Source of the DNA: Asterionellopsis glacialis | Lineage: Eukaryota; Bacillariophyta; Plagiogrammaphyceae; Rhaphoneidales; Asterionellopsidaceae | DNA length: 18,985 nt | Reading direction: 5' to 3' | Assembly (NCBI GenBank): GCA_014885115.2 | Contig: WKLE02005327.1 | Coordinates: 1 to 18,985 of the forward strand | Part shown: positions 279 to 6,842 of the stretch, piece by piece | Layout of the letters: each line of letters opens with the position of its first letter | Numbering within the stretch: position 1 is the first letter of the stretch | Program-made: the position numbers and the translations under genes | Notes under the pieces: generated by a model | What the model was told of the DNA's origin: nothing | What the model saw: only the letters and a program-made list of their open reading frames with translations | Databases searched by the model: none

Positions 279-841
279 GGACTACCACAGGTACCGGTAC
301 TGTTCGTGAAGCACGACCTCGAGAGTAGTGCGGTTCGGAATATTATTCAATTCGGTTTATTGTAATATTTCACTTTAATGAAATACCTAGTTATTCTCAT
401 TTCTCCTCCTGCGCCTATTCATACTTTGAATATTACTCCTATTAATCAACTTACTTGAAAATCCAAAATCATTCAAATCAATTGGCTTATAGCTACTTTG
501 GATGTCCGGGCCGATATGTTCTCGGTTTGGGGTTTGCGGTTTCTCTCCAAACAACTGCTTAAGAAGACATCATTCCCCAAAACACATCTCCTGCCCAGAA
601 GAAGAAATGTTCTCTACGGCTGCAAACGCTGTTCTTCAAGTTTGCACGGTAGCAACAGCAACAGTAACCGGCTACTAAAGTGTTTTGTTATTCCACGAAG
701 CATTGCATCCGAAAGCAATAAAGATTTTCGGACGTGCCGCCAATCACATCATTGATTTTTTCTGGCGAATAAATAAGTTTGATTTGTAGTTCACATCCAT
801 CAAAGAAAATAAAGGTTCCCCATATCGCAATTTAAGTAATC

Positions 842-3800
842 ATGGAACGTATCGAACTAGGCCTACAGCAACAACAAGAGAGCAAAGAAATCAGATATAA
901 TTCTAATCCTCAAACAACAATGCAGGAAAAAGATGAAATGAATGATTCCTCTCGTTCATTTGATTTTGATACAGAACTTGACAACAACGACTACTCTCAA
1001 GCAGAAACATCATCAGAAACAAAAATAATTGTAGCTCATCATCAACAAAATGATGATGGCGGTGATTTTCCAGAGCTACATTCAACATCACAATGGAGAG
1101 ATTCTTCATCGTGTTGTCGATCCTTGAACGATGACAACTGTTCCTCGCCTAGTGACAGACAACAGGCATCAACTACAATAGACGACAGTGAACAAAGACG
1201 ACAACAGCAGCAACAGCAAAGAACGCCTCAATTACGCTCATCACTGCCTCCAATATCACCAGATGAGGAAAAAGGTCCAAGTTTTGCAGAATTGGTAAAC
1301 CTTTTTACAAACTGGCTCCAAAGTTTAGTTACAAGCTGGCTTCAAAATATAGTGACTAAATTGATGCAATTTCTTACTAGAATAGAAAGCCTTCTTCTGG
1401 ATAAAGAAGTTGCAAAACCAGATGAAGAAGATGTTCAAGAAGATTGTGATAATAATGAGGTCAACCGCAATGATAAGGGTGTCATTACGTCATCAGTGGA
1501 GACTGCAATAGTCCAGGAACAACCACAACAAGAATATGACTATGATCGCATGGTAATGCTGCATGCATCTCCTCTTGCATTTCGTGACAGATATCAAACG
1601 GTGCATAAATTTGATTATCATGATTTTACAGAAGAAAAACGGAAGATACGTGATGCGTTCAAGGAGGCACATGATTTATGTGGTAAACAAGTTGATGTTA
1701 TATTTGATGTAGCAACATTGGATCGATTTGAATTAGCATTGACATCAAATACAAATCCTATACTACATTTTTCATGCCATGGACATAAAGATCATTTATA
1801 TTTGGAGAGTGAAACTAACTGGGGTTTTATGAATTGTATTAAAAAGGATACTCTGAAAAAAATGGTAACGGCATCTTCGTCATCCTCATCATCGGGGGGG
1901 CAACAAACACATGAGCATTTACAAGTCGTATTTGTGGCGGCATGCCATTCAGAAGAAATAGGGAAAGCCTTTTTGGAGGCAGGTGTTCGTCATGTTGTAT
2001 GTTGTCCTACAGATATCAAAATTCGACATACAGGTGCTATGGTCTTTGCTCAGAGTTTTTATCGCGCTTTGGGATGTGGACGAACGCTAAAGGAAGCTGT
2101 ACAAATCGCACGCGCTAAAGTATCCGAATCGACAGAACATGTACGGAGCGCTCCAGAAGAAGCAGAGAAATACTTGCTGTTACCACGTCAAGAAACTTTG
2201 GGTGATCCAGATTATCATAATGTTCGTGTATTCTACCAAAAAAAGAAAAATCCACCACTTGCAGAACGACAACGCAGCTATGCTATTCAACGATACCTCC
2301 CACCACCGCCTCAAGCTTTTAGAGGGCGAACTATTGAGGTGGACGAGTATAGAGTGTTAACCGATATTCGGACCAAGCCAATTACTCAGATAACTGTTGG
2401 GAAATACGAAGCTGATCCAACCCTACTGGCTAAGGCTGTCTGTAATTATCTTTATGAACGAAGTCAGGTATTCAAAATACAAGATATTCTTTGGATTGAC
2501 CCAAAATCTTCGTCAATACCACTAAATGATAGAGTAAGCAGATCGTTTCAGCGTGTTCTTGACATGCTCACTGACAACCATCACCATTTCTACGGCAATG
2601 TCTCTGATCAATCCTCAGCGCAACCTAATTATGAAGAATGCTGTTCTCATATAGTGCAAGATATTGGCAGGTTGAATGCAGTTGTTTTCTTACAAATCAG
2701 GCACATACCCATGGACGATCATGCTGCCGAGAAAAAACTTCGAAACTTTTTGAACCATATGGTCAAAGAAACTCAACCGACCGTCAAATTTGTTCTAATT
2801 GGTCCTTCCGGCTTTGATATCAGCGGACCAGAGCCGGTACTTCCTGTGAGCCCTAGTAATAGCAATGTGACCTTGACGAAAATAAATATGAAGGAGGCAG
2901 AGAAGGGAGCGAAAAGGGTAGTAGACGCTTACTTTGCATTTCATTACCCTTCAACGAAGCTTGACCATCTTGACTCTATACCACGATTGTGCCATAGTTT
3001 GAAATATTTGGCAGCTCATGTAAGATCCCTTCAGAAATCAGATGCGAACATGAAAGCTACTTCGCTTCTTATCACTGATGGCCGTCTGGAAGATTTGAAG
3101 AAAGAATTAAAACCCGCGACTACGACGATTCGGCTTATAGTTTGGTGTGGCGAAGGCATTGAAATTTCGAAACCCACCAATAATAGGGCTAAGACTTTGA
3201 TGAATTCGCCTATCCTATCCGCGATTGCCAAGCGAAAACCTAAACTTGTTGTGGTCTGCCTGAAATATGGTGCTGAATGTGCTGCTAACAAATTGGTTCA
3301 GGAACTGGACATTGATGCTGTTGTTATTTGGATTACCATGGACCCTTTTCAAAAGGATGTAAAATGGATGTTTACAATGATTTTCCACCCATTTTGCGAA
3401 TCATTTTTTTCCGGAAAAGCAAATCCGAAAGAATGTTTTGCCGTTTTGAAGGAAAGGACAATCAAGGCCGGATGTCAGGGATGCGATATGGTGAGCCAAG
3501 TTGAGCTATCCGGATCATTCATACGACTTCAAAAACCTGCATGTCCAAGTGCGGAAGGTGTGAAGCTAATGACTCATTCCTGTTCGACAACACCGTGGTT
3601 TTTATCACGTGAGGTAAGAAACTTAAAGATGAATGCAGGTGATTACTCTTTGTTGGATGATGCAAAAGATTACATTTCCCGGCAAAGTACTGAGGGAGAC
3701 CCTAGTTATTTGTTCTTGACGCCAGAGTGGGAGGCGGTCGACTCGACAGAGGTTAACTTGAAAAAAATTAACAGAAAACTTTCTGAGCGAGCTAGAGCAG

Positions 3801-6800
3801 CAGCCTTGTACGTCTGCAATGAAGTCAGTTGTGATAGCTCTGGAATTTTTGGTGGCGGGATATATCTAGTTTCATCAGAGAATGATAAGGCAAAGGTTGA
3901 AGCGGCATTAGCCGAAAAAGTCGAGAGTGCGCTTGTGTGGATCGACTTCCAACGGACCGCGAAAACTCCTATATTCGAGAATGCCGAAGACCTTAATATA
4001 TGGGTAGAAAGTATTGGGAAATCTTCAACAGTTGTTGTCATTCTAACTGGCGATGAAAAGTATTTGCAGCACATTTTTTATCTAGAAGATGAGCTCTACT
4101 CGTATAGTACAAAATATGAACATATCGAAGTTAAAAGGAGCACTGGTAGAGAAGATTTTCCAATCAGAAATCTGATTGGATTTGTCCGTATTCTTCCTTT
4201 GAAAAGGGATGAAGTTAGTAGTGAGGGCTGCATCTTGGACCATGTGCAATACGTCACATTTCTTCTTGCCTTGGAAAAGGTGTTACTTCCCCAAGAAGAA
4301 GGTGGTCTGCGTGACGAAATTCGAGTGTACCGCGATGATGATGGCTCTGTGCAGGTGCGCCTTTGCGTAAGTGATTTTCGTCACTTAACGCGATTGCGAG
4401 ACCTCATCTTGATGGGAGATGCCGCGGAGCAAATGTGCAAACTATTACCAGACCTTAAGCAAAAGGGGTACTCCATTCACTTCGACCGTTCCGCCATGGC
4501 TGAAATATACGAAAGTTTAATACTACAATTGGAGAGTCCAACCGAACACCAACAGATAAAGCTTGAAGAAATTGAATCAAAACGACGGACCCACATTGAA
4601 TCTCCGGCTGGAACAGGTAAGATTATTATGCTTTCTTTCCCTGTTAATGTGAACCCATTTTTCTATAGCATTTTCTTACGTGTTTCTCATGTGTTCAATA
4701 ATTACTAAAGGTAAAACATTTGTAGCTTTAAATAGCACCGTCGACTTTCTTGAGAGAACTAAGTCGGAGGAAAAGGTTTTGTATATCTGTCGCAACAGCT
4801 GCCTGGCAATTCATTTTGTAAAGTGGCTGTGCTATAGAATGCAAAAGGAGTCTGGACTGAACAAAACTTTGAAAAGACTCTACACCTTGAGCGACGATGG
4901 CACGTATGGAATTTGCTCGTATAGTTTTAACAAAAAGAGAGGCATTCTTGATGTATCTTCGTACAAGAAACCATCAGCGCTTTCTTTCGGGAAAATCATA
5001 GTTGATGATGCTCACGATATCTTTGGTAACCATAGGGATAATATTATTCGTGATTTACGAACGAAGGCTAGAAAAATTGTGGAAAGACACAAAGAGTGTG
5101 AATTGATGGTGTTGTCGGACGAGTCACAAGCAAGTGTTTATCGTGATGGTGAAATTACGTACCCGAAAGACCTTAGTCGTGTGCAACTTACAGAGGTTTG
5201 TCGGAATAGTAAACGAATTGTTGCAGGAGCGCTCGCCTACCAGCTACCTGGCACAAACCACCTGACATGTGCACACGACTCGGTTGGTGTACCATTGTCT
5301 CCGATCTTGTTTGACTGCGACAGTACCAATGAGATGCAAACATATGCTGAACAGATTATTGAGGCTATTGGGGACTTGCTACAAGAATTTCCTGGACTCA
5401 ATCTTCACGATCGTCTTGCCATCGTGGTTCCGGATGAAAAATTTCGCGAAGAGCTCTGCTGTGGAGCTGCGCTTGGCGAACTATTGGAAAAAAGCAAAAC
5501 CCAATTCGGTCAGCTATTAGTTCCAAAGACTGCATTTGAAGCCTCTCGCGTACTTAATCTCAGTGACATTAAAGCGGAAGAGGCCTGGATTGTCGTGGAC
5601 TGTATTGACAAACTAGAGGGTCTCGAGCGCTTGATTGTATTTGGTGTTGGGCTTGATGAGAGTTTGGCTGATGTGAGCACCCCGAACTCTATAGTGCGTG
5701 CACGGATTTATCGAGCAATAACGAGGGCGCACTTGGCTTACTTCCTTATTAACAAGCGTGTAGAGAAAGGGTGGTTTGAGTACATAGAAGCACTTGATTT
5801 TGAAGGAGATACATTTTCGCTAGACGACGAGATGAGAAAGACAAAATCGGATTCGACGGTTACATTGATTAGGGAAAACAGTGCAGAATTGTTGGCTGAT
5901 GAGAGTAATGTTGCCCATGGAAGTGCCCAGGGGAGACTAGAAAACTCCGTGTTAAGTGAAAGTGAGCAAGAAGGGTCTACAGATACAAAAACCACTGTCG
6001 ATGCAACAAATTTCAAACAGGGAACATGGGCCGTCCGTAAAAGACTTCAAAAGGAACATCGTAATCATCCTTTCTTCATGCCATTTAAATCCATCGAGTC
6101 AGAAAGCTACGCTGGTAATAGACAGAAGCATGGTGTTCCGGAGGATGATGAGCTTGCTTTTCCGGAAACTGAAGGAACTCCAACCAGAAGTAATGTTAAA
6201 AGCTTATCAGAAGAAGTAGACAAAGAAAAAGATGAAGGGGCAAGCTTGCACTTGATTTCTCCGACAATCGATACCATAAGCTCTCCTCCAAGTGGTGAAA
6301 AGATGGAATTTGAAAAAGAAAAAGTCAGTGCGACAAGCTTAGAGGTACTTTCGCCAGCAAGTGACACACGAAAGTCTGACAAAATTTTATCTGAGACCCC
6401 TCCTCCTAAGCCTGACCGGAAACCAGTAGGAAGAGTGTCATCATTTCGTGACGTAGTGATGTTGGGGCACTCAGAGAGCCTTGATAGCCTCCCAGTCAGT
6501 ACACCAACCTCAAGCTTTGTTCATCATAACAAGGTCTCGCCAATGATAGTTGTCGAACCGATCAGACGCCAAACCATTAGTATGCTGGACATGCATCTGG
6601 AAGATACCATCAAGGAAGAAGACGAGGTCCACCCAGAAGTTTCTGGCGGTACGGAAGATTACTATCATCAAAAGATTAGGGGTGCACAAGCTCGATTCCA
6701 TCGAAAACAATTACGACCAGACGAAGCAAAGCGGAAGGAGCATAGTATCATGAGGAAGGAACAACAGAAGAAGATTCAAAGGCAGCGAGAGGCGAAACTA

Positions 6801-6842
6801 GCTAATGAAAAGAGCCCTAAAAACTATCGTCTAAGTGGTTGA
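842..6842 (+). CDS. CHAT protease / NB-ARC-like / SF1 helicase fusion
   Basis: The gene is join(842..4616, 4711..6842), giving 1968 residues. Residues 1-145 are Gln/Ser-rich and disordered. Residues 148-188 form a hydrophobic amphipathic helix with a tandem WLQSLVT/WLQNIVT. The CHAT domain (~235-430) keeps the caspase-type pair: His313 in FSCHGH and Cys368 in VAACHS. Residues ~490-740 follow the NB-ARC order: FRGR at 493, a P-loop position reduced to VGKYEADPTLLAKA (519-531), a hydrophobic strand at 614, FVLIG at 650, LTKINMKEAE at 678 and IPRLCHSL at 713. Residues ~760-890 look like a second, catalytically dead CHAT unit, and ~1004-1130 is weakly TIR-like. The helicase motifs are complete: I SPAGTGKT (Lys1260), II VDDAHD (1356), III LSDESQ (1393), IV CRNSKRI (Arg1423), V LEGLE (1560) and VI YRAITRAH (Arg1597). 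The tail is disordered, then basic and coiled. Family knowledge places CHAT plus NB-ARC in STAND/NLR-type signalling; a defence or death role is inference. Two separate genes are possible but unlikely, since splicing rebuilds the P-loop. Confidence 0.85.
4617..4710 (+). other. 94-nt intron inside the helicase P-loop
   Basis: The donor is GTAAG at 4617 and the acceptor AAAG ends at 4710. Joining completes a split glycine codon (G|GT, residue 1259) and creates the Walker A motif SPAGTGKTF, which neither open frame has on its own. The length is not a multiple of three, and a stop at 4706-4708 would end a retained-intron product at 1288 residues. Confidence 0.9.

Follow-up and report, generated by a model that had tools for sequence, protein, structure and literature searches.

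A single diatom gene joins an intact-looking CHAT protease to a member of an algal family of SF1-type helicases. The gene lies in the window, an 18,985-nucleotide stretch of Asterionellopsis glacialis DNA. The wider family is the real find: its core combines a dead CHAT-like domain, a STAND/AAA+-fold domain lacking a P-loop and an SF1 (Schlafen/UvrD-like) helicase, with effectors swapped in front of it or behind. We read the window's gene as a diatom member of this NLR-like family, in which a nucleic-acid-driven helicase would release CHAT and so trigger defence or cell death, and we put the probability of this reading at about one half. The motor half seemingly belongs to an undescribed algal family whose related motors are joined to other cell-death and signalling enzymes, and the diatom protease-helicase fusion may represent a kind of algal immune sensor not recognised before.

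Two exons encode one protein. Joining 842-4616 to 4711-6842 yields exactly 1968 residues and one terminal stop, the length given in the initial annotation. The residue positions named there are exact (His313 in SCHGH, Cys368 in AACHS, Lys1260 in GTGKT, VDDAHD at 1356, Arg1423 and Arg1597), and its domain identities and order are correct. The features of the gene are as follows.

842..4616, + strand: exon 1, residues 1-1258 and the first base of codon 1259
1283..1411, + strand: possible amphipathic helix before CHAT, residues 148-190, by hydrophobic moment (calculation only)
1538..2137, + strand: CHAT protease domain, residues 233-432, His313 and Cys368 intact
2285..2902, + strand: NB-ARC/nSTAND-like region, residues 482-687, with loss of Walker A and Walker B
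3068..3451, + strand: pseudo-CHAT part of the conserved middle module, residues about 743-870, with unconserved dyad columns
3575..4414, + strand: STAND/AAA+-fold domain without a P-loop, residues about 912-1191, with a Walker B-like Asp1035 and an RxR (983/985) near the P-loop position
4322..5837, + strand: SF1-type helicase module, residues 1161-1634, intron inside, with K1260, D1357-D1358, R1423 and R1597, from the relatives' alignment and PDB profile matches
4617..4710, + strand: intron of 94 nt, GT-AG, within the helicase Walker A codon (GTG|KT)
4711..6842, + strand: exon 2, residues 1259-1968, then the stop
6021..6086, + strand: variant of a C-terminal W...FMPF motif, residues 1696-1717, the pattern being found in some helicase relatives

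It is extremely improbable that an assembly or gene-model artefact joined two genes here. The assembly is fragmented and the window stands as its own stretch, but a single uninterrupted frame of 1290 codons (836-4708) takes in CHAT, the NB-ARC-like region and the middle module and reaches the helicase Q-motif, so the fusion is independent of the intron. The exon junction is supported as well, because it restores a PAGxGKTF block, invariant in nine aligned sequences, that the spliced protein crosses without a gap. The intron at 4617-4710 cuts the helicase P-loop codon; a transcript that kept it would meet a stop at 4708 and encode the protease without the helicase, possibly as a regulated isoform.

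Neighbouring frames with Pfam matches, from a scan of four of the seven window frames, carry an EH domain, an rRNA methylase, a methyltransferase and a signal peptide peptidase, and look like ordinary nuclear genes. The own-genome assembly that we searched (40.3 Mb, 1503 contigs) also encodes a silicon transporter (PF03842, E 7.3e-82), which marks it almost certainly as that of a diatom. Window positions 865-1392 align with L028 (C35:2917-3450) over 535 columns at 95% identity with frame breaks; this fragment is a recent partial duplication of the 5' part of the window gene. The charged C-terminal tail recurs at about 35% over 121 columns in another gene (L029:4629-4979, C190), which we rejected as a second own-genome relative since its match is limited to that tail.

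The front half of the protein carries a CHAT domain with an intact dyad. PF12770 scores 33.3 bits against a cut-off of 24 over residues 233-432, and the His and Cys lie in the right strands. Fold matches to the predicted structure are filled by CHAT (model residues 6-245), which crowds out rows for the NB-ARC-like part. Profile and fold thus agree on CHAT, with both members of the His313/Cys368 pair present. CHAT alone passed a curated cut-off when the two exons were searched as single sequences against Pfam, NCBIfam and the PDB; the Pfam search of this kind returned no NB-ARC and no helicase.

The NB-ARC-like region behind CHAT is homologous to the NB-ARC/nSTAND region of CHAT-STAND chains and has lost both Walker motifs. 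It scores 90 bits against a profile of its own paralogues built without it, with 6.7 the best of 200 shuffles. Walker A is degenerate (GKYEADPT for GxxGxGKS) and the Walker B Asp is missing (FLQIR for IVDAR). The NB-ARC-like core of the initial annotation therefore holds as homology to CHAT-STAND paralogues, but the state of these motifs rules out a P-loop ATPase switch in this region.

CHAT-NB-ARC-like frames occur at six further loci in the genome (C1350, C179, C930, C1082, C853 and C296), besides the broken 5' copy and one short weak match on C687. Pfam CHAT falls below its own cut-off in C179, C930 and C1082, and C1350 scores just below the nSTAND1 cut-off (1e-5, 25.8 bits against 27.1). 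The P-loop GK pair is present in four of the six (C1350, C179, C930, C1082); C853 has its Lys changed, and C296 is degenerate in both halves. Partner regions are varied: LRR-like repeats below cut-off in C853, macro in C179 and C930, WD40 in C296, a coiled coil by eye in C1350 and a C-terminus without a recognised domain in C1082. With residues 225-760 as query, two further chains appear at E<=1e-3, P0012 (LRR-CHAT-macro) and P0013 (CHAT-nSTAND1-SH2). On this evidence the front half derives from a diatom CHAT-STAND family, and this front appears to have been placed before the helicase core in this lineage.

Some of these paralogues have unusual layouts. C179 (L023:3868-6342) and C930 (L024:3478-6054) are CHAT-NB-ARC-coiled coil frames that end in a macro (ADP-ribose binding) domain, and in both the CHAT Cys strand reads MCDS. 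C296 (L026:2937-7271) is one 1445-codon frame with two CHAT-NB-ARC-like halves, their dyads degenerate, around WD40 repeats; to judge by its residues it is a natural double pseudo-CHAT.

The back half belongs to a family spread across algae. The helicase-containing half matches its best relative at E 2.6e-68. Residues 460-1640 as query retrieved 11 relatives at E<=0.01; each aligns with the helicase at about 28-37% identity, and none has Pfam CHAT in precomputed lists. With the relative P0002 as a second query, 180 proteins came up at E<=1e-3, of which 120 were listed, and the listed matches of both queries gave 123 helicase relatives. Named sources include Aureococcus, Chrysochromulina tobinii, Baffinella, Symbiodinium, Durusdinium, Effrenium and Chromera, alongside MMETSP, single-cell and metagenome entries; beside the diatom, the named species include dinoflagellates, haptophytes, cryptophytes and a pelagophyte. 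The searches scored roughly 8000 candidates sharing most words, within a length range, so an absence of diatom orthologues is unproven. No bacterial or archaeal relative was confirmed: 101 stretches matched the pattern and 0 passed tblastn. Fourteen matches on viral contigs (22-41% identity) are limited to the N-terminal helicase part (query residues 5-161).

Profile searches recover the helicase that single-sequence Pfam missed. The nine-sequence profile matches 72 PDB sequences at E<=0.01. Among the 60 of these that were listed, the top match is Brr2/U5-200K (3.5e-11), and SLFN11 (5.3e-8), PcrA, SLFN5 and SLFN14 also appear; SF2 helicases such as MDA5 and RIG-I are listed too, mostly across the N-terminal domain. 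Pfam SLFN-g3 (cut-off 24 bits) passes in some relatives, such as P0002 (30.0) and P0100 (31.3), but not in others, such as P0003 (20.3), and the window's exons, searched apart, give no helicase family match and stay below this cut-off. A W-D...FMPF pattern is shared by 26 of 124 proteins and by none of 124 shuffled sequences, the window's looser variant not being counted.

The helicase motifs are conserved with one exception. The nine-sequence alignment shows motifs III (SDxSQ), V (DGLE) and VI (YRAxTRAH) that are SF1-like. Across 124 rows (window plus 123 relatives), the residues examined in motifs Q, I, II, III, IV, V and VI are kept in 118-124, the motif II Glu excepted: this position is Glu in each of the 122 relatives that align a residue to it, and Asp1358 in the window. 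The full SF1 motif set claimed initially stands, with the correction that motif II reads DD where relatives have DE. With this replacement, seen in the window alone, hydrolysis may be weak, and the helicase may hydrolyse slowly or act as a clamp.

A stress-triggered death protease whose helicase is now a non-hydrolysing nucleotide- or nucleic-acid-binding clamp would account for the lone Asp at 1358, as well as for the missing P-loops of both STAND-like domains. Its trigger would be binding or nucleotide level and not unwinding, since the helicase would not hydrolyse. We consider this quite unlikely: Lys1260, Thr1261, R1423, R1597 and motif V are intact, and Asp in motif II may still support some hydrolysis.

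The same change bears on whether the gene is simply decaying, fast-evolving with its function lost. The catalytic Glu is changed, no branch in the tree is longer than that of the window helicase, and a broken 535-bp copy of the 5' part sits on another contig. That copy is a separate fragment, however, and the gene itself keeps a 5.9 kb open frame, one clean intron, the CHAT dyad and the other helicase motifs, which makes decay very unlikely.

Between the two halves lies a middle module, present in the window and in 66 of the 123 helicase relatives and preceding the main helicase match in each. Its first half aligns with the CHAT profile in register: the hhalign score is 38.0, against a maximum of 21.0 over 200 column shuffles and 18.3 reversed, with a probability of just 28.6% (16.3% with a smaller alignment). 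Control comparisons gave P 0.52 for middle module versus helicase and P 0.026 for CHAT versus helicase. The second half is predicted to adopt an AAA+/STAND fold, its model matching CED-4, Avs5, NSF and ORC among others, and G-x4-GK[ST] is found in 0 of 45 second-half sequences. Mean pLDDT of the module model is 65.8; the second half alone fills the fold list, where the pseudo-CHAT half has no independent match. The module's profile hit no PDB sequence at E 1, and Pfam found no family common to more than one of nine members. An assignment of residues 929-1165 to NB-ARC by sequence was dropped (score 15.2, shuffles up to 16.9); the fold comparison later favoured AAA+/STAND.

Effectors are exchanged on this conserved core. 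The slot before the middle module holds TIR in P0001 (433-538) and P0019 (2-82) and, weakly and below cut-off, in P0043 (439-505); caspase C14 in P0080 (276-499); and CHAT in the window, where the NB-ARC-like region intervenes. Swappable effectors on a conserved core, as in NLR receptors, are therefore found here with TIR, C14 and CHAT. P0082 has a caspase-like GHA/DSC pair in the slot by eye, its best Pfam C14 stretch being C-terminal. Other effector-type domains are C-terminal too (P0064, P0083, P0096, P0018). Precomputed Pfam lists for the 123 relatives give TIR in 6, C14 in 4, PARP in 1 and protein kinase in 12, 22 proteins in total with two kinds in P0083; the other 101 list none of these. 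WD40, RCC1, ankyrin, LRR and TPR are also listed. Single chains can be elaborate: P0083 (2963 aa) carries a trypsin-like domain, TPR, protein kinase, the family helicase and caspase C14, and P0001 has a HET-type-like region (by eye, about residues 160-260) ahead of its TIR and so possibly two tandem effectors.

CHAT itself may precede the core outside this diatom. The initial annotation knew of no described CHAT plus SF1-helicase chain, and our literature search found none. The arrangement is nevertheless less solitary than that suggests: P0087, metagenomic and lacking its N-terminus, has a CHAT Cys half in the slot (E 6.5e-5 to the CHAT profile in a set of 126 sequences; no Pfam CHAT among the 25 of 29 rows listed), and P0062 and P0066 have a CHAT-like GHA/NGC pair there by pattern, without Pfam CHAT.

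Domain content also speaks to an RNA/DNA-metabolism or stress-signalling scaffold, where CHAT would trim or regulate RNP partners and the relatives' domains would serve general signalling and not immunity. We judge this somewhat unlikely. In place of death effectors, many relatives have RCC1, F-box, U-box, FYVE, WD40 or kinases; kinases, RCC1 or WD40 need not signify immunity, and the top listed PDB match is spliceosomal. Yet the family brings together TIR, C14 caspase, PARP and CHAT, domains typical of conflict and death systems, some of which occupy the same slot, and a dead caspase-like domain next to a STAND-like fold would be odd for RNA processing.

The simplest model for these observations is a helicase-released protease in a scaffold-plus-helicase arrangement. 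The analysis shows the domain content, the conserved motifs, the family and the exchange of effectors; ligand, coupling, protease activity and outcome are what we infer. The active-looking CHAT would have arrived with its own P-loop-less NB-ARC-like partner, and the two STAND-like domains would be nucleotide-independent scaffolds, keeping CHAT inactive or determining its oligomeric state. The helicase, the sole part with an intact Walker A, would bind nucleic acid or RNP with ATP and change shape; CHAT, released or clustered, would cleave its target and lead to defence or cell death. The switch first proposed, a nucleic-acid-sensing helicase controlling a caspase-like protease, is plausible given TIR, caspase and CHAT before the same core elsewhere, but its NB-ARC-like region is no P-loop ATPase switch. 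By analogy, the model fits the NLR and RLR pattern and the fungal NLRs in which CHAT serves as a death protease, a role linked to gasdermins in the available part of PMC10197012. Gasdermin PF04598 had 0 matches in the diatom genome, but control genomes were equally silent, so this zero is uninformative.

Two features weigh against a close parallel to NLRs. Neither STAND-like domain has a P-loop, so the functional STAND ATPase that acts as the switch of an NLR receptor is missing. Two queries of its genome also turned up no family helicase other than the window's, and this is the tree's longest branch, which argues against a large receptor role and is unlike an expanded receptor repertoire.

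Virus sensing and death commitment in single-celled algae are poorly understood. Algal death research has focused on metacaspases, going by sources such as the accessible part of PMC8455989. The open literature, most subscription journals and bioRxiv lying outside it, yielded no description of a helicase-core algal family or of diatom CHAT proteins; the sole paper pairing "CHAT domain" with "diatom" was a cyanobacterial extract study. Tentatively, and at somewhat less than even odds, we propose a widespread, undescribed class of algal intracellular receptor: a dead caspase-like domain and P-loop-less STAND scaffold, an SF1 helicase replacing the STAND ATPase as nucleic-acid-driven switch, and TIR, caspase, CHAT, PARP or kinase exchanged between lineages, the diatom form being a one-chain helicase-triggered caspase-like death protease. 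If true, this helicase-centred family with TIR and caspase effectors would offer a concrete candidate for the sensor layer that is missing, as a parallel to NLRs and RLRs, and would exemplify a helicase replacing a STAND switch. A vague question would become one about concrete proteins with predicted catalytic and sensor residues.

Known systems share parts of this architecture. Like fungal and bacterial NLRs that bear CHAT (with NB-ARC/NACHT and repeats), the window protein has an intact-dyad CHAT followed by an NB-ARC-like region; unlike them, that region lacks a P-loop, and a middle module and SF1-type helicase stand in place of repeats. SAVED-CHAT and TPR-CHAT (Craspase/Csx29) are prokaryotic systems, whereas the window puts protease and candidate nucleic-acid sensor on one eukaryotic chain. 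In helicase receptors (RIG-I-like receptors and others, with MDA5 and DDX60 as examples) an effector is joined to a helicase that serves as nucleic-acid sensor, and profile similarity to the window family lies over the N-terminal helicase domain. RLRs are SF2 helicases with CARDs; the window has SF1-like motifs III, V and VI and a protease in cis, and a Pfam scan of its exons found no CARD. Schlafen group III (SLFN5, SLFN11, SLFN14) is the closest named SF1-type helicase family by profile, with Pfam SLFN-g3 in relatives, but the matches span only part of the helicase domain, and Schlafens, which carry an N-terminal RNase core, have no CHAT, TIR, caspase or middle module. STAND conflict systems, as described in the available parts of eLife 52696 and 70394 (PMC7159879 and PMC8195603), likewise exchange effectors on a conserved core, and the helicase partners described there are different ones, SF2 and SF1 modules in bacteria and DDX60 and Mov10 in animals. 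The switch of STAND systems is the STAND NTPase; in the algal family the STAND-like domains are P-loop-less and the Walker A comes from an SF1-type helicase.
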